From Gammaproteobacteria bacterium (lineage in GTDB: Bacteria > Pseudomonadota > Gammaproteobacteria > Arenicellales > Poriferihabitantaceae), in NCBI GenBank assembly GCA_011523765.1, contig WTGA01000072.1, positions 1,409-33,673 on the forward strand: a stretch of DNA of 32,265 bases, given 5' to 3'. The notes beneath the pieces were generated by a model that saw nothing but the letters and a program-made list of their open reading frames with translations, did not search any database and had not been told where the DNA came from. The stretch's first letter is position 1. Every line of letters begins with the position of its first letter. Made by a program: the position numbers and the translations under genes. Positions 6,375 through 14,121 of the stretch are shown piece by piece.

Positions 6375-6404
6375 GGCGAATCTGTCGGAGCAGTGATCGG
6401 TTGA

Positions 6405-6433
6405 AATGTACCCCCAACGGCGGCAGCTGTAAA
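6405..6433 (-). promoter_or_regulatory. Likely promoter of the tmpA-tmpB pair
   Basis: On the minus strand TTTACA (6433-6428) lies exactly 17 bases before TACATT (6410-6405). This is a good sigma-70 match (5/6 and 4/6). Transcription would start near 6398, about 24 bases ahead of the ATG. No Shine-Dalgarno is obvious between them. Confidence 0.5.
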
Positions 6434-6559
6434 GTCGTATCGACCGCCGTCCTGACGGGACCGGGGACCCGGAATGCGAACCACCGGGGCCGCCTGTCCG
6501 GGATCATCCCCGGAGGCCGGGCCACCGGGTCAATCCGGCAGGCCCCGAGCCGGAAATAT

Positions 6560-6568
6560 TGATACACT
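6560..6568 (+). promoter_or_regulatory. Possible extended -10 promoter for the ferredoxin-like gene
   Basis: TGATACACT contains a TG-extended -10 box (TACACT, 4/6). No good -35 is visible. It would start a transcript about 36 bases before the ATG at 6610. The 235-base divergent region 6375-6609 otherwise shows only the tmpA-side promoter and GC-rich DNA. Confidence 0.3.
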
Positions 6569-6609
6569 AGGCACGGTACAGTAACCGATGACATGGCCGG
6601 ATACCGCGG

Positions 6610-7320
6610 ATGCCCACAACCACCCTGCTGGATGAGATAGTTGAATTCTCCGGGCGTTACGGCCTGGTGGTCCGGGGCGGGTTTCACCCCGGCCGTGATG
6701 ACGGTATTCCGGAAATTGCCGACGGCGTGCCCGCCGGGTCGCTGGTGTTGCTGGGCAATGCGGGCTCCTCGTTATGGGAGTGCTTTTCCGTCTCGCCCGA
6801 ATACTCGGATGGCCGGCCGGACCCGCTGGACCGCTGGAGTGAGGGGGTGGGCCTGGAACTGGCCAGACATTTTTCCGGCAGGGCTTTCTTCCCTTTCGGC
6901 GGACCGCCGCATCAGCCGTTCCTGGAATGGGCAAGAAAATCGGAATCACTGCAGTCCTCCAGGCTGGGAATGCTGATCCATCCCGAATACGGATTGTGGC
7001 ATGCCTACCGGTTTGCCCTGGCGCTGAGACCCCGCATACCGGAGTTTTCCGGGAAGCCCGCCGGGCCGGATATCTGCGCCAGCTGTGTCGAACAGCCCTG
7101 TCTGCAGGCCTGTCCCGTTGAGGCGTTTACGGGGACCCGGTACGATGTCGAATCCTGTTACGGGTATTTGAAATCGAACCGGGAATCGTCCTGCCGGCGG
7201 GAAACCTGCCTGGCCAGGGCGGCCTGCCCGGAAGGCGGGGCATTCCGGTACCAGGCGGAGCATGCAGGTTTCCATACCGGCAAGTACTTTGAGAGGCTGG
7301 TCCGAAGGTTCGAAAACTGA
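6610..7320 (+). CDS. Ferredoxin-like protein, QueG-related C-terminal region, orphan
   Basis: A 236-residue soluble protein with a C-terminal iron-sulfur region. Cysteines 156, 159, 164 and 168 form a ferredoxin-type set (C-x2-C-x4-C-x3-C-P), and a second group at 183, 195, 200 and 206 has unusual spacing. The stretch MLIHPEYGLWHAYR (121-134) before the cysteines recalls the segment ahead of the two [4Fe-4S] clusters of epoxyqueuosine reductase QueG, but the protein is shorter than QueG and I see no cobalamin-binding or HEAT-repeat part. Redox or electron-transfer role is likely; partner and substrate are unknown. It is transcribed alone, divergent from tmpA. Codon use matches its neighbours. 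Confidence 0.8.
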   Translation: MPTTTLLDEIVEFSGRYGLVVRGGFHPGRDDGIPEIADGVPAGSLVLLGNAGSSLWECFSVSPEYSDGRPDPLDRWSEGVGLELARHFSGRAFFPFGGPPHQPFLEWARKSESLQSSRLGMLIHPEYGLWHAYRFALALRPRIPEFSGKPAGPDICASCVEQPCLQACPVEAFTGTRYDVESCYGYLKSNRESSCRRETCLARAACPEGGAFRYQAEHAGFHTGKYFERLVRRFEN

Positions 7321-7383
7321 CCGGCCCCCGGCTTGCGTCCCCCTACCGGCCCGGGACGGGTATTTCACGGGAAGAAATTGAAT

Positions 7384-7409
7384 TAGAATCGCGCCTTTAA
7401 ACCGGAAGG
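7384..7409 (+). promoter_or_regulatory. Possible -10 box and ribosome site for the hydantoinase-like gene
   Basis: TAGAAT at 7384-7389 followed by CGCGCC looks like a -10 box with GC-rich discriminator; no clear -35 precedes it. GGAAGG at 7404-7409 is a good Shine-Dalgarno 11 bases before the ATG at 7421. If the -10 box is right the leader is only about 25 bases. Confidence 0.4.
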
Positions 7410-7420
7410 CCTGTTATCTC

Positions 7421-9427
7421 ATGTCTTGTCAACTGGGTATTGATACCGGAGGGACCTACACCGACGCGGTGATTGTCGATGAACGGCAATCCGTGGTTGC
7501 CAAGAACAAAAGCCTGACCACGAGCTTTGACCTGACCCTCGGCATTGCCCAGGCCATTTCCTCTTTGCCCCGGGCTCTTCTGGACCAGGTCAACCTGGTG
7601 GCGCTTTCCACCACGCTGTCCACGAATTCAGTGGTTGAGGGCCGGGGAGCACCGGTGGCCGTACTGTTGCCGGGTTACAGTGAGCCGCAGGTGATCAAGA
7701 GCGGACTGACCCGAATCATGGAGCGTGATCTCATCACCTTGCTGGACGGCGGCCACAACGCGACGGGCGATGAACTGGTGCCGCTGGACCTCGCCCGGGC
7801 GGAAGAGGCAATTGCCGGGCAAAACGACCAGGTCTCGGCGTACGCGATTTCCGGCATGTTCGGCACACGCAATTCCTCCCATGAAAAGGCACTGAGATCG
7901 CTGGTCATCGAATTGACGGGCAAGCCGGTGGCCTGCGGGCATGAACTCGCTTCGAATCTCGGTGCCCCCCGCCGGGCGTTGACCGCTGCACTCAATGCCC
8001 GGATGATCCTGTATATCCAGGCCCTGATCAATTCGGTGGAGTGCATCCTGGACCGGCAGGGCATTTGTGCGCCCCTGATGATTGTCAAGGGCGATGGTTC
8101 CCTGGTCAATGCGGAAACGGCCTTGCTGCAGCCGGTGGCAACGGTGCTGTCCGGGCCTGCGGCCAGTGTGATCGGGGCCTGTGCACTGAGCGGGCAGGAA
8201 AACGGCATCGTGGTGGATATCGGGGGTACGACGACGGATATCGCCATTGTCACGGATGGTCAGCCCGAATTGTGCGAAGACGGGGCCAGGATTGGCGACT
8301 GGCAGCCCATGGTGGAGGCGATCCGGGTTTTTTCCATCGGGCTTGGCGGGGACAGTGAGGTCCGTTTCCGGGCGAAACTCGATATTTCCCAACGGCGGGT
8401 AGTGCCGGTCAGCCTGCTTGCGAGCCAGTTCCCGGAAGTGTTGCCCGCACTCCGGCGCCAGTGGAGTGCTCCGCCCAGCCCCAGAAACAATAAATTTGCG
8501 CTGCCACTGCAGAAAAACGAGGTATTGATCCGCCATCTCAGTGAAATCGAACTGGAAGCGTGGAAACGCCTGCAGCTCGGCCCGATGGAACTGGAGGCCC
8601 TGGTCGACAACCGTCCCGTGCTTCGCGCCATTGCCAGAATGGAGCGGCTCGGCCTGGTGATCTACAGCGGGTTCACCCCTTCGGACGCGACCCATGTCCT
8701 GGGCATGAGCGATCACTGGGACGGCGTGGCAGCGGAAATCGGAGCGAAAATCTGGGCACGCCAGATGCGCAGCCTGTACGGGTGCGGGAGTTGGGAGCTG
8801 GGGGATGCCATCGCCCCCTGCAGGGAGGTCTTTGCACTGGTGACCCGGAATATCAGCCAGAAACTGATTGAAGCCGGACTGAACCAGCATGGGAAACTGG
8901 CCGATTCCAAGTCCAGGAATGTGACCCAATTGCTTGCCGACATTATCCTGAAACCGGACAATCCGGGGAAAGCCCTGCCGTTGTTTGAACTGGCATTTGC
9001 CCGCAATTACCCGATTATCGGGGTGGGCGGACCCGCCGGAGACTATTTCCCTGAAGTGGCCCGGCAACTGGGTGTGGATCTCCATCTTCCGGAGCATGCC
9101 GAGACCGCCAACGCCATCGGCGCCGTCATGGGAGCCGTTGTGCAGATTTCCCATGTCACGGTCACGCAACCTGAATTCGGGGTATTCTACCTGTTCCACA
9201 AGGGGGACCCCATCAAGTTTGATCACCTGGAGAAGGCCCTTGACCGGGCCGTCGCCATCGCAAGGGACGAGGCCCACGGAATGGCCGTGTCGGCGGGGGC
9301 CACCTCCATAGAAACCCGGATTACCCAGGACATCAACCACATCAAAAATGATATTGACGGCGAGCTTTTCGTCAGTACCCTGGTGACCGCCATTGCTTCC
9401 GGCCGGCCCGGCTGCCTGATGCCATAG
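7421..9427 (+). CDS. Hydantoinase/oxoprolinase A-type (HyuA-like) protein, solitary
   Basis: Member of the ATP-dependent hydantoinase/oxoprolinase family, whose N-methylhydantoin, 5-oxoproline and acetone-carboxylase members activate an amide or ketone with ATP. The 668 residues show the N-terminal ASKHA phosphate loop IDTGGTYTDAVI (7-18), LSTTLSTNSVVEG (62-74), SGPAASVIGA (244-253), the second phosphate loop VVDIGGTTTDIAIV (264-277), and GIGG-like GLGGDS (308-312). The length is normal for an A subunit. The usual B subunit gene is not adjacent: the next gene encodes a DNA-binding protein. The substrate cannot be assigned. A strong ribosome site supports the ATG. A 701-codon frame on the opposite strand is a shadow. 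Confidence 0.88.
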   Translation: MSCQLGIDTGGTYTDAVIVDERQSVVAKNKSLTTSFDLTLGIAQAISSLPRALLDQVNLVALSTTLSTNSVVEGRGAPVAVLLPGYSEPQVIKSGLTRIMERDLITLLDGGHNATGDELVPLDLARAEEAIAGQNDQVSAYAISGMFGTRNSSHEKALRSLVIELTGKPVACGHELASNLGAPRRALTAALNARMILYIQALINSVECILDRQGICAPLMIVKGDGSLVNAETALLQPVATVLSGPAASVIGACALSGQENGIVVDIGGTTTDIAIVTDGQPELCEDGARIGDWQPMVEAIRVFSIGLGGDSEVRFRAKLDISQRRVVPVSLLASQFPEVLPALRRQWSAPPSPRNNKFALPLQKNEVLIRHLSEIELEAWKRLQLGPMELEALVDNRPVLRAIARMERLGLVIYSGFTPSDATHVLGMSDHWDGVAAEIGAKIWARQMRSLYGCGSWELGDAIAPCREVFALVTRNISQKLIEAGLNQHGKLADSKSRNVTQLLADIILKPDNPGKALPLFELAFARNYPIIGVGGPAGDYFPEVARQLGVDLHLPEHAETANAIGAVMGAVVQISHVTVTQPEFGVFYLFHKGDPIKFDHLEKALDRAVAIARDEAHGMAVSAGATSIETRITQDINHIKNDIDGELFVSTLVTAIASGRPGCLMP

Positions 9428-9451
9428 TACCCGGGGGCATGGCCCGGATTG

Positions 9452-9470
9452 CCGGAACCATTTCCGGTTT
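9452..9470 (+). terminator. Possible terminator after the hydantoinase-like gene
   Basis: CCGGAA-CCAT-TTCCGG forms a perfect 6-bp hairpin (9452-9467) 25 bases after the stop codon, followed by only three T residues. The stem fits an intrinsic terminator, the short T-run does not. Confidence 0.35.
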
Positions 9471-9586
9471 GGAAGGGCCGGGGCACAGCCGGCCAGGGAT
9501 GAAGCCCGGTCCGGTGAAAAATCAACGGGTTGGGCGGGTCGAAAAATCCTCCTGCGCGACTTCTCCTCGAAAGCTCCCGTGAACCG

Positions 9587-9595
9587 TGTTATGAT
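9587..9595 (+). promoter_or_regulatory. Extended -10 promoter for the alpha-CTD/sigma-4 gene
   Basis: TGTTATGAT contains a TG-extended -10 box, TATGAT (5/6). No good -35 is seen, as is common for extended -10 promoters. Transcription would start near 9602 and leave a leader of about 120-160 bases, long enough for the small upstream frame at 9706-9762. The rest of the 9428-9724 gap shows no other gene. Confidence 0.4.
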
Positions 9596-9705
9596 GCTTT
9601 CCGGCACGGGTCTGTCCGGTGCGGGACCGCGCACCGGATCCATGTTCCCGGTTGCAGTCAAACTGTCGCCGGACCGTCCCCCGGCCCGTTGACCTGTTTT
9701 TACCC

Positions 9706-9762
9706 ATGATAGAAATGACCGGATTTGCAGCACCTGTTTTCACCGGGATACGGGCGGATTGA
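9706..9762 (+). other. Short upstream frame overlapping the start of the next gene
   Basis: An ATG-initiated 18-codon frame (MIEMTGFAAPVFTGIRAD) overlaps the first codons of the large gene in another frame. It stops at TGA 9760-9762, one base before an in-frame TTG of the large gene at 9764. This geometry would allow termination-reinitiation coupling. No Shine-Dalgarno precedes the ATG. It may be chance. Confidence 0.25.
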
Positions 9763-12004
9763 CTTGGCCGTATCCATCTTCGACATTCAACCATGGGGCC
9801 GGGCACCGACTCCCCTGTTGCCCGAGGTGATCGTTGCCGTGATCGGACACCTGCCCGCCCCTTCTTCGCTCAGGAAAGTCCTGGGCGAGCAGGCAACGCT
9901 GGGGATACTGAACCAGCATCTGTGGCAGGAGGTGGATTCGGTCGACAAGCATTGCCTGCAGGACCTTGTCAGGAAAGTCGGGCCGCGGTTGCTGGCGCTG
10001 TCGCATTTGCCGGTCCTGTCCGGTGAACCGTTGAACCAGCAGATTCAGTACCTGCCGCTCTCCACCCGCACGCGGACCTGTGTCAGAAAACACCAGGACC
10101 AATTGATATGGCATCCCCTCACCATCGCAGATGTCCTGTCCGTGCCGCGGATGGGCCACTCCTGTGCCATCGAATTCCTGTCGGTGGTGGAGGCTGCCGG
10201 CGAATTCCTGCTGGCGGGGGCGGCGAAGGACCCGCAGACCGGGCAACGGCCCCGGACAGCGGCTTTGCTGACCGAACAAATCGACTCCGCATTCCGGATG
10301 CTGGCCGCCTATGCCGCGGGGGAACAGAACCTGGAGACCCTGGAAGCGGTATTGCCCGCTGCCCGGGAAGACTGGCCCCCCGAGATCAAGCAGCAATGGG
10401 CATGGATCCGGAACGGCGGAGCCAGGGACCTGGCCGGGGACCTGGCCGACCGGTATTCGGTTCCGGCACTGATGTCCCGGGCACTGGGCGGGGTGAATGA
10501 CCGGTCACGGGAGATCTTGCTGAAACGCACCCTCAGTTCCGGAGAGGCGGTCAATCTCAAGGTGCTGGGAAGACACTATGGAGTCTCCAGGGAGCGGGTC
10601 AGGCAAGTGGAAAAAAAGGCACTTGCCTCCCTGAACCAGTTGAAAACCAGCCATTACGGGTCGGTTCTTCGACGGGCGCAAGTCGTGCGGGAGAAGCTGG
10701 GGGTCGGGGTGCCGGCCGGGGACCGCCTGATCCGGGAGGTCCTGGACGAGTCCACGAAGGACATGGAAGGCCTTCCGGCGGGGTTTGCCCGGGCCGTGAT
10801 GCTCTGGCTGGCGGGGCCGTACCGAAAAAGCCGGGACTGGCTGCGGGCGGAAGAGAATCTGGAACAGTCCACCAAAGAAGCGTTGCTGGGCCGTCGCAAT
10901 GAACGTGGCGTCGTGACCGCGGCGGTGGTCAATGAGACGCTGTCACAGTTTGGTTTCAACGAAGGATTTCACGATGCCTGGATTGCACGGCTTGACCACT
11001 TCACGCCGGTCGAGGAAGGGTATATCTGCATCACTGGCAATATCCCGGACAGGGCCCGGGCGCTGTTGCGTTACCATGACCGACCGGTGTCGGTGGAGGA
11101 GATGGTGGCCGTGCTGGGGGTCACCAGTGTTCGCAGCTTCCGGCAGCGCCTGATTGCCGACCCGGGATGCTGGAGGATCAACAAGCAGAGTGATTTTGTC
11201 CTGGCGGGGGCCGCAGGATATGAGGAATACACGGGGATCACGGGGGCGATCATGCGGGAACTGGAAGCCGGAGAAGGCCGGGTTCCCTATGCGCAGCTGG
11301 TTGAAAAACTGGCACGGGTGCATGGCGTGAAGCCGGGATCCGTGGCCGCTTACATTCATACGCCGTTCTTTGAGAAAGACGCAAACGGTGTGGTCCGGGT
11401 CAGGGATACGGGTGATTTCACCGTTTCCACCGACCTGGACAATACGGCGGCGTGCTACCAGGACGGGGACGGCACCTGGTATTGGCGGGTGGCGGTGAAG
11501 AAAAACCTGGTCAGGGGGAGCGGTTGCTCCGTTCCGAATGCGTTCTCCCGGGAAATCGGGTGCAACATTGGCGAGAAAATCGAGGCCGACACGGTGGTCG
11601 GGCCGTTGACGTTCAGTTGGCCGTTGACGTCCCTGCTGGGCGCATCCATCGGGTCGCTCCGGCTGGCCGCGGCCTCCTGCCAGGCGGAAGAGGGAGACTT
11701 CCTGTTTGTCCGGGCGACGAAACCGGTGATTACCTTCCGGCGACTGGGCCAAGAAGCGGTCGATGCCGCCGGAACGGACCTGATCCGTTTGAGCCTGCTC
11801 ATGGGGTGTGTCGAAGTGGACAATGAGTCCGACGCCCTCGCGGGAATCGCTTCTGTTCTGAAAATTTCATCCACTTCGGCGGGACAGACCCTTTTTGAAG
11901 CACAGCGCCGCCTGAAAGAGCGTGGCGAATCCGGGCTGGCGGCATTGTTGCCGTCCCCCAACCTGTCGATCGACGACTATATGGCCAGCCGGGACCGGCC
12001 CTGA
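9725..12004 (+). CDS. Large DNA-binding protein with alpha-CTD-like and sigma-70 region-4-like domains
   Basis: A 759-residue protein that I cannot name. Residues about 111-157 (LSTRTRTCV ... LTIADVLSVPRMGHSCAIEFL) resemble the helix-hairpin-helix alpha C-terminal domain of RNA polymerase. Residues about 257-306 are a clear sigma-70 region 4 with the HTH LGRHYGVSRERVRQVEKKAL (281-300). Two later segments look like small winged helices (about 443-494 and 505-560). The C-terminal 200 residues are unassigned. Sigma regions 2 and 3 are missing, so it should not melt a promoter on its own; a regulator that touches promoter DNA or polymerase is the inference. The start is uncertain: a stop lies just upstream of TTG 9725, TTG 9764 and GTG codons near 9826 are alternatives, and there is no early ATG. 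It is monocistronic and convergent with the next gene. Confidence 0.8.
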   Translation: MQHLFSPGYGRIDLAVSIFDIQPWGRAPTPLLPEVIVAVIGHLPAPSSLRKVLGEQATLGILNQHLWQEVDSVDKHCLQDLVRKVGPRLLALSHLPVLSGEPLNQQIQYLPLSTRTRTCVRKHQDQLIWHPLTIADVLSVPRMGHSCAIEFLSVVEAAGEFLLAGAAKDPQTGQRPRTAALLTEQIDSAFRMLAAYAAGEQNLETLEAVLPAAREDWPPEIKQQWAWIRNGGARDLAGDLADRYSVPALMSRALGGVNDRSREILLKRTLSSGEAVNLKVLGRHYGVSRERVRQVEKKALASLNQLKTSHYGSVLRRAQVVREKLGVGVPAGDRLIREVLDESTKDMEGLPAGFARAVMLWLAGPYRKSRDWLRAEENLEQSTKEALLGRRNERGVVTAAVVNETLSQFGFNEGFHDAWIARLDHFTPVEEGYICITGNIPDRARALLRYHDRPVSVEEMVAVLGVTSVRSFRQRLIADPGCWRINKQSDFVLAGAAGYEEYTGITGAIMRELEAGEGRVPYAQLVEKLARVHGVKPGSVAAYIHTPFFEKDANGVVRVRDTGDFTVSTDLDNTAACYQDGDGTWYWRVAVKKNLVRGSGCSVPNAFSREIGCNIGEKIEADTVVGPLTFSWPLTSLLGASIGSLRLAAASCQAEEGDFLFVRATKPVITFRRLGQEAVDAAGTDLIRLSLLMGCVEVDNESDALAGIASVLKISSTSAGQTLFEAQRRLKERGESGLAALLPSPNLSIDDYMASRDRP

Positions 12005-12048
12005 GAGCCGGGAGCCGGTTGCCCGGATTGTGCCGACGGGGGGCCGGG

Positions 12049-14121
12049 TCAGATTTGTACGTATTCGCGCCGGTAAGGCACCCGGTCCGGGTCGAGGTCC
12101 CGGCCGAACTCCCGGGCGAAACGATGGCCCTGGTAGACCGCGTCCGCGATGGTGGAGGGCGCCAGGCAATCGCCGATCCGGGATACGGACTTGATGCCAG
12201 CGGCTTCCAGGCCCTCCCGGTCCCCGTCCAGTTCAAAAAAGAGAGACTCCTGTGGCCGCCGTGCGGTCACCATGACCACGGAGCCGGCCTCCAGCGACTG
12301 GGTGGTTCCACTCACGCAATGCGCGATGAGGAGTGCATCGGGCGCAATGGACTTCAGTTCGTGTTTTTCGATGATCCGGACCCCGCAATCCAGCAGGTGC
12401 CGTTCAATGTAGCGCTGTTCAAGCGTGTTGTGCGTCCAGGTGGAGACATCTGCAGCCGGGGTGACCAGTGTGACCGCGGTATGGTGCCGGACCAGCGCTT
12501 CGGCAATCACGCCGCCCATGTAGTAGTGGTCGTCGTCATACACCACGACCGGTCCGCGGAAAGCGGTCGTGCCGGCCATCACGTCGTCGGGTGTGACGAC
12601 GCAGGCGTTCTGGCTGCGGGGGATGTCCTGGCGGTGTTGTCGACCGATACCGCCCGGGTCCCACCTGGAGCCGGTGGCACAGACGACATGCTGTACTCCG
12701 AGCGCCCCGGCAAATTCCAGGATCTGTGCCGGGGTCAGCGCGCTTTGCAGGTGAACCTCCACATTGTCCAGTTTTTCGATTTGGCCCATTCGATAGTCCA
12801 CCACCCGTTTCCATGCCGACAGTCCCGGCAGCCGGCTTTCCCGGTCAACGCGTCCACCGGGATTTTCCCCGGCATCGGCCACGGTCACCGGGTAGCCGCG
12901 TTTGCCCAGGGACATCGCAGCTTCCAGTCCGGCCGGGCCGGCCCCGACGATCAACACGGCATCCTTGCCGGTCCTGGGCTCTATCGATTCAGGATGCCAT
13001 CCCTTCCGGTATTCTTCCGCCATGGTCGGGTTCTGGGTACATCGGATGGGTGAGACCGTCATGTCTCCCGAGACACAGATATTGCATCCGATGCATTCGC
13101 GGATATCCTCCAACCGGCCTTCTTCAATTTTTTTCGGCAGGAAGGGGTCGGCAATGGAGGGCCGTGCCGCACCGATCATATCCAGAATGCCCCGTCTGAT
13201 CTGGGAAACCATGGTATCCGGGGAGGTGAATCGGCCAACCCCCACAACCGGTTTGCTGGTCACCTGCTTGACAAAGGCCGTGTACGGTTCCTGGAAGCCT
13301 TCCCCGGAAAACCGGGAGGATTGGGAATCGTGTTGCCAGTCACTGATATTCACGTCCCAGATATCCGGATATTCAGCGAGCATCTCGATGACCTCCCGGC
13401 CTTCGTTTTCCGCAACAATGCCCTGGTTGCCCATCATCTCGTCCACGGCGAAACGCAGGGCAATCCCGCAGGTGTCTCCCACGGCGTCTTTCGTGTCTTC
13501 CAGGATTTCACGCAGCAGCCGGACACGGTTTTCCAGGCTGCCGCCGTATTCATCGGTCCGGGTATTCCGGTTCGGGGAGATGAAATGAAAGGGCAGGGCC
13601 AGGTCATGGGCCGCATAGACATAGATGATGTCGAATCCGATTTCACGGGACCGCAGGGCCGCCCGCCGATGCCATCGCCTGACATTGGCAATGTCCTGCT
13701 TGGTCATCGCATAGCTCTGTACCGGGTCGTAGCCGTCGATGAGCATTTCAGCCACGGCCATGGTGGGAAGCCGGCTGTGCCGGTTGGTGCTGGCATGTCC
13801 GTTGTGGGTGATTTCGATGGCCGCCAGGGACCCGTGTTCGTGCACGGCATCGACCATCAGTTGCAACCGCTTCATGTCTTCCCGGTCCCACAACCGGCCT
13901 TCGATATAGGGGGAAACATCGGTGCTGGGGTGGATATCCACTTCCTGGGTGGAGACCACGGCCCAGCCGCCTTGTGCTTTCATGCCGCGCATGGACGCCT
14001 CCCCTTTTGGAAACAGGTGGCCCAGCCCGTTACAGTGAGGGACCTGGTAAAAGCGGTTTCTGGCCGTTACCGGGCCAATCCGGACCGGTTCAAACAAGAT
14101 GTCGTATCGTGGGTTTTTCAT
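12049..14121 (-). CDS. Trimethylamine/histamine dehydrogenase-family flavoprotein
   Basis: FMN and [4Fe-4S] amine dehydrogenase of the TMADH family, 690 residues. Order: OYE-like TIM barrel (1-about 330) with Cys30 for the 6-S-cysteinyl FMN bond (QVPHCNG), Tyr169 and His172, Trp262 and Asp265; iron-sulfur cysteines 343, 346, 349, 361; then a nucleotide-binding domain (VLIVGAGPAGLEAA) and a second Rossmann-like part. Compared with remembered TMADH numbering, the aromatic bowl residue Tyr60 is Glu60 and Trp355 is Asp353, while the third tryptophan is kept. This pocket is closer to what I recall for histamine dehydrogenase than for trimethylamine or dimethylamine enzymes, so a primary or cationic amine is more likely. 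It is the second cistron, 44 bases after the GS-like gene. Electrons probably go to an electron-transfer flavoprotein not seen here. Confidence 0.85.
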   Translation of the reverse strand: MKNPRYDILFEPVRIGPVTARNRFYQVPHCNGLGHLFPKGEASMRGMKAQGGWAVVSTQEVDIHPSTDVSPYIEGRLWDREDMKRLQLMVDAVHEHGSLAAIEITHNGHASTNRHSRLPTMAVAEMLIDGYDPVQSYAMTKQDIANVRRWHRRAALRSREIGFDIIYVYAAHDLALPFHFISPNRNTRTDEYGGSLENRVRLLREILEDTKDAVGDTCGIALRFAVDEMMGNQGIVAENEGREVIEMLAEYPDIWDVNISDWQHDSQSSRFSGEGFQEPYTAFVKQVTSKPVVGVGRFTSPDTMVSQIRRGILDMIGAARPSIADPFLPKKIEEGRLEDIRECIGCNICVSGDMTVSPIRCTQNPTMAEEYRKGWHPESIEPRTGKDAVLIVGAGPAGLEAAMSLGKRGYPVTVADAGENPGGRVDRESRLPGLSAWKRVVDYRMGQIEKLDNVEVHLQSALTPAQILEFAGALGVQHVVCATGSRWDPGGIGRQHRQDIPRSQNACVVTPDDVMAGTTAFRGPVVVYDDDHYYMGGVIAEALVRHHTAVTLVTPAADVSTWTHNTLEQRYIERHLLDCGVRIIEKHELKSIAPDALLIAHCVSGTTQSLEAGSVVMVTARRPQESLFFELDGDREGLEAAGIKSVSRIGDCLAPSTIADAVYQGHRFAREFGRDLDPDRVPYRREYVQI

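Follow-up and report, generated by a model that had tools for sequence, protein, structure and literature searches.

A protein family combining RNA polymerase alpha-, sigma- and probably delta-like modules: a candidate docking subunit of helicase-nuclease defence systems, with an orphan copy in a gammaproteobacterium

What does a protein do that joins parts resembling several RNA polymerase subunits in one chain, and lacks the core of a sigma factor? The question is raised by a gene in a 32,265-nucleotide stretch of a gammaproteobacterial genome (contig WTGA01000072.1), the whole of which is called the window below. Our answer, to which we give a probability of about one half, is that the family provides an RNA-polymerase-type DNA-binding or docking subunit for helicase-nuclease defence machines, and that the window copy is an orphan, which may act as a solitary regulator. 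The gene, its parts and its neighbours are as follows:

7421-9427, forward strand: upstream neighbour, hydantoinase/oxoprolinase subunit A-like gene, conserved in the genome's family
9764-12004, forward strand: the family gene, complete, 746 aa from TTG 9764 (the listed ORF opens at TTG 9725, 759 aa)
9791-9823, forward strand: N-terminal motif PWGRAPTPLLP, residues 23-33, from alignments; common to the proteobacterial copies and echoed in actinobacterial ones (DAFPW)
10034-10198, forward strand: divergent alpha-CTD-like helix-hairpin-helix (HhH), residues 104-158, from profiles; homologues have clear alpha-CTDs at the same place
10481-10633, forward strand: sigma-70 region 4, residues 253-303, from Pfam; recognition helix SRERVRQVE
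10658-11044, forward strand: linker, residues 312-440, with conserved LGxxxP...AGPY..W in the alignment and no confident fold match
11045-11215, forward strand: probable HARE-HTH/RNA polymerase delta-like winged helix, residues 441-497, from the family profile and Pfam matches of homologues
11216-11410, forward strand: second helix-turn-helix-like domain (wHTH), residues 498-562, conserved
11432-11734, forward strand: C-terminal domain with an invariant RGSG motif, residues 570-670, conserved and predicted to be beta-rich
11735-11959, forward strand: C-terminal helical tail, residues 671-745, ending in a family LxxRGD-like motif (here LKERGES)
12049-14121, reverse strand: downstream convergent neighbour, Old Yellow Enzyme (OYE)/FadH-like oxidoreductase gene, from profile matches

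An earlier note on this DNA had described one 759-residue ORF at 9725-12004, and that frame is indeed uninterrupted, remaining intact across the 746 codons from TTG 9764; what changes is the start. The homologue P0004, from a genome (G046) within the same order, has the N-terminus MSKYKDQIKVWGRAPTPL, in which 10 residues precede the conserved W of the WGRAPTPL motif. Because TTG 9764 gives the same 10-residue spacing, the window gene probably starts there and not at 9725. Residues 20-738 of the window protein align with P0004 at 33% identity, and the codon-position GC of the ORF (0.66/0.46/0.75) resembles that of the neighbour genes; on both grounds we take this to be a real gene.

Sigma-70 region 4 can be recognized from the window protein by itself. 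Pfam PF04545 matches residues 253-303 with E=2.3e-10 and 40.3 bits, above the gathering cut-off of 24.1, and the match encloses the helix-turn-helix that had been proposed at residues 281-303. In E. coli sigma70, an R, an E, an R and a Q of the recognition helix touch the -35 element; aligned with it, the helix SRERVRQVE keeps R/E/R/Q at these contact positions, and in the G046 copies the set is no longer complete. All NCBIfam matches of the window protein are to the C-terminal end of sigma factors. Neither region 2 (core and -10 binding) nor region 3 was found in Pfam, NCBIfam and PDB scans, where sigma matches were confined to about residues 211-349; the earlier statement that both regions and the sigma core are missing thus holds.

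The alpha-CTD-like segment, placed by the earlier note at residues 111-157, is best seen at the level of profiles. With the window protein as the only query, Pfam gives no PF03118 match even at E<=1. When its segment and the two G046 copies are combined into a profile, the top PDB match is RNA polymerase alpha (E=0.016), and alpha makes up 10 of the 14 matches at E<=10. Among 24 proteins scanned, a set that includes a Clostridia protein in L083, nine match PF03118 (best 6.7e-46); the E-value is 7e-4 for Microbacterium P0003 and 8.5e-6 for Arthrobacter P0006, the latter passing the gathering score. A search with the profile built from the actinobacterial segments reaches RNA polymerase alpha at 1e-7. 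When the window-plus-G046 profile and the actinobacterial alpha-CTD profile are compared with hhalign, they align at E=8e-5 with a score of 25.9, the best of 40 column-shuffled controls reaching 13.5. Structural comparison used a single-sequence AF2 model of residues 104-158 (pLDDT 69), whose top seven Foldseek matches are polymerase complexes or alpha-CTD, none of them significant (E>=0.12). The VIA Z of the model is about 3-4, tied with other HhH/SAM folds, and RAD51 N-terminal and SAM domains rank level with alpha-CTD in VIA, which we attribute to an HhH/helical arrangement that is widespread. The window segment has diverged: it carries T and S where E. coli has N268 and K298. Residues 104-158 are taken here as a probable diverged alpha-CTD, a relationship that the profile, hhalign and homologue matches support over a slightly wider span than first proposed.

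Two winged-helix-like segments had also been proposed, at residues 443-494 and 505-560. For the first, a polymerase kinship emerges that the earlier note had missed: for the family profile of residues 441-497 the top PDB match is RNA polymerase delta, with an E of 0.053 that is marginal, and PF05066 (HARE-HTH) is matched by 7 of the 24 proteins scanned (best 5e-4), with no Pfam match to HARE-HTH for the window copy alone. This winged helix probably resembles HARE-HTH and polymerase delta. The second, now residues 498-562, is conserved and stays nameless; profile searches gave no confident match for it, the linker (312-440) or the RGSG domain (570-670). A likeness of the RGSG domain to a B3/EcoRII-like pseudobarrel had been suggested by eye, and a PDB profile search gave no match. 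Single-sequence AF2 of the full-length protein reached a pLDDT of 39, too low for use. Pfam and NCBIfam scans found no enzymatic domain in the window protein. One chain thus probably carries alpha-, sigma- and delta-like modules together with a second wHTH and the RGSG domain; the domain assignments and the family membership of the window protein are well supported.

To find further members, we searched with a C-terminal profile (A2) that leaves out sigma region 4 and so keeps out ordinary sigma factors. Two other profiles, A3 and A5, were pulled to the sigma region 4 motif and gave mostly true sigma factors; of their matches in the contig collection, only L048 and L083 were useful. The family is patchily distributed and uncharacterised. 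A2 matches occur in 2/109 genomes of the window's order, in 4/297 of the order of an Arthrobacter, in 7/118 of the order of a Nocardioides and, partial paralogues included, in 101/121 of the order of Planobispora; in a phylum sample of 398 genomes, the window's own genome is the single match. Within the window's family, one of 24 sampled genomes has the gene. In the Planobispora order, where it is nearly universal and chromosomal, the gene looks like a housekeeping gene rather than a part of mobile defence. Members are also found on actinobacterial plasmids, and none were found on viral contigs or in phage records, where the A5 matches carry sigma region 4 only. Both worries that the earlier note had raised about its own reading can be set aside: profile and Pfam searches matched the alpha-CTD as well as sigma region 4, and the homologues are not all fragments of known families, as full-length ones exist.

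How does this architecture compare with known proteins? Each polymerase-type module is detectably related to one RNA polymerase subunit, namely alpha (CTD), sigma70 (region 4) and delta (HARE-HTH); unlike these subunits, the family lacks the alpha N-terminal domain and sigma regions 2/3, and it places the modules, along with two other domains, in a single chain. A sigma region 4 within a large defence protein is also seen in MzaA, from the MZA anti-phage system, and a family homologue (L190) overlaps a Z1/MzaC-like gene; however, in 297/299 genomes RpoD-type sigma factors match the MzaA model over positions 237-716, so that a sigma core is present in MzaA and absent from the family. Membership of the window protein in MzaA was rejected, the NF041931 match being 27.7 bits over model positions 631-705 only, against a cut-off of 800 bits. 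In PglW of BREX, three wHTH modules come after an alpha-CTD-like domain, and the protein also has a kinase and a STAND-like domain that is inactive; BrxL joins a sigma-HTH to an AAA+/Lon core, and some DndH proteins join one to REase and HerA-FtsK (PMC12839542, PMC10853773). None of these three combines alpha-CTD with sigma region 4 as the family protein does.

The neighbours of the homologues give the family its link to defence. Eight of the loci gathered by homology search (L032, L035, L142, L146, L187, L188, L189 and L198), a count that stands without a background rate of defence genes, share the order sigma-like family gene, PbeA, PbeC and dnd_assoc_4 (TIGR04062). PbeA is here an HKD/PLD-SF2 protein (TIGR04095, PADLOC PbeA), the family gene is the first gene ahead of the Pbe genes, and the loci mostly adjoin dndE, dndD and dnd_rel_methyl. 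In L142, L187, L188 and L198 the stop codon of the family gene overlaps the GTG start of PbeA (GTGA). The family gene was ruled out as a replacement for PbeB: a PbeB-sized ORF lies between PbeA and PbeC in all three loci checked, and the family gene is therefore additional. In the tree the Pbe label needs three changes, and starred branches force at least two; probably, then, this partnership was gained or lost more than once. Other defence neighbours are a GmrSD gene 92 bp downstream of the family gene (L148), a DndB gene 9 bp upstream with Zorya genes nearby (L150), BREX genes (L143, L196), Z1 (L192) and type IIG (L191); no clear defence neighbour was seen in L033, L149, L151 and L193. For the Pbe-linked branch, conserved gene coupling is strong evidence of a defence partnership, and in this best-supported context the partner is a translationally coupled helicase-nuclease; this speaks for targeting or structure as the role, more than for mere regulation.

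The homologues thus precede pbeA-B-C-D beside dnd modification genes, in the setting of the Dnd-coupled PbeABCD system (CxC ABC-ATPase-DndE); the window genome, by contrast, is without PbeA and DndD. PbeA searches there gave matches only at the level of generic helicases, none above background; DndD was not found in that genome, and no defence gene lies beside the window copy, with neither PbeA nor PbeC nor DndD adjoining. An anti-invader regulator, as the earlier note had offered, is therefore backed for the family by its neighbourhoods and not for the window copy. In a relative (G004), the hydantoinase and OYE genes abut, 15 bp apart and with no gene between (the OYE match is short, as the contig ends), and in G001 and G015 other genes fill the interval. 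The window copy is a lone, horizontally gained gene without its usual partner. The hydantoinase-OYE interval (9428-12048 in the window, and likewise in L308, L310 and L315) is a variable site in this genome family.

We infer that family proteins bind DNA or polymerase and have a targeting and regulatory output. In the reading that we prefer, the protein would be the DNA-binding or polymerase-docking subunit of machines built on PbeA-type HKD-SF2, Z1, GmrSD or UvrD-like proteins; it would place the machine on promoters or transcribed DNA, or let the machine tell self from invader. As a general reading, this targeting mechanism has about even odds. The window copy most likely would still bind -35-like promoter DNA and/or polymerase and act in trans; a solitary regulator that may bind the -35 element is the leading guess for its role. 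A bolder version, which we consider unlikely, has the subunit imitate alpha-CTD, sigma region 4 and delta so as to dock on promoters, or directly on RNA polymerase, and thereby steer helicase-nucleases to actively transcribed invader DNA (transcription-coupled restriction), with phosphorothioate or another mark as the safety and lone copies as host promoter regulators.

What if the family had no targeting role at all? A stand-alone transcription regulator would set sigma region 4 on the -35 element and the alpha-CTD-like domain on nearby AT-rich DNA, and would compete with or help the holoenzyme, the defence links of homologues amounting to operon autoregulation. The intact -35-contact residues of the window copy suit this idea, as does the finding of no enzymatic domain; so does the most similar pair, window P0001 and G046 P0004, which form a 100/100 clade in the tree and are both without defence partners. 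The GTGA overlap with PbeA, however, is typical of complex partners, and five DNA-binding-type domains plus a conserved RGSG domain exceed what an operon repressor needs, so that we regard this account as possible, if somewhat doubtful.

Alternatively, the polymerase-type domains might be generic DNA binders in a protein that makes no contact with RNA polymerase, and the HARE-HTH, wHTH and RGSG domains would read modified or unmodified DNA on behalf of a restriction complex. HARE-HTH has been proposed as a reader of modified DNA and is found in Dnd-linked nucleases (PMC10853773), the alpha-CTD- and sigma-HTH-like domains of PglW, BrxL and the DndH variant have been read as DNA-binding parts (PMC12839542, PMC10853773), and the family adjoins phosphorothioation genes. 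Many members, including the window copy, nevertheless have no modification genes nearby, and chance recruitment of DNA binders alone hardly accounts for a chain that unites alpha-, sigma- and delta-type modules; we judge a pure reader distinctly unlikely. It is very improbable that the window copy is just a relic, once part of a defence system, which arrived without its partner and has little use today. Its gain as a single gene at a variable intergenic site in 1/24 sampled genomes of the family, in a genome with no PbeA or DndD, would agree with this, but the frame is intact over 746 codons, codon-position GC is normal, and the 33%-identical near-full-length homologue is a lone copy as well; lone copies therefore persist. 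If the docking-subunit reading is true, some Pbe/Dnd systems would have a fifth gene, a mimic of polymerase, and this would hint at how such systems pick their target; the polymerase parts that PglW, BrxL and DndH each show singly would also come under one theme, promoter or polymerase recognition by defence machines. The gene is a small, testable part present in culturable actinobacteria.

Aravind and Iyer reportedly described in 2012 bacterial HARE-HTH proteins 'combining features of RNA polymerase alpha subunit and sigma factors', the same domain trio, and are said to have given neither a Pbe/Dnd linkage nor a description of the family. A Clostridia protein of 576 aa (L083:730-2460, forward strand, MAG DTU065), in which sigma region 4 and more HTH-like sequence come after four alpha-CTD repeats, would fit that description; it stands by itself, the genes downstream being unrelated, and shows a similar architecture in another phylum. 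As a Pbe partner, the alpha-CTD/sigma region 4/delta-like combination appears undescribed: the main texts on the four-gene Pbe system (PMC6459918) and its re-analysis (PMC10853773) list no such protein among the components.

Some further loci are of interest in themselves. In L150 (1585-12660), ZorA, ZorB and ZorD are convergent with the DndB-like gene and the family gene, and in L196 (10361-18112) a complete sigma factor gene, which is convergent with the family gene, precedes BrxHI-, BrxD- and PglZ-like genes. PbeA on an Arthrobacter plasmid (L032:9506-11663) is split over two overlapping frames, which may reflect a decayed locus or a sequencing error. In L193 the family gene (6404-7807, reverse strand) and a type 2A encapsulin shell gene, which has a cNMP-binding domain, are divergently oriented. 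Nonomuraea has two family paralogues on either side of a UvrD/HelD-like SF1 helicase, a layout shared by L199 and L200. This three-gene unit (L031:3488-9476; also L141, L199 and L200) is probably inherited vertically and lies beside cysS-like genes; in L031 the helicase N-terminus is possibly RelE-like, judged by eye, and the first paralogue carries a long disordered insert.
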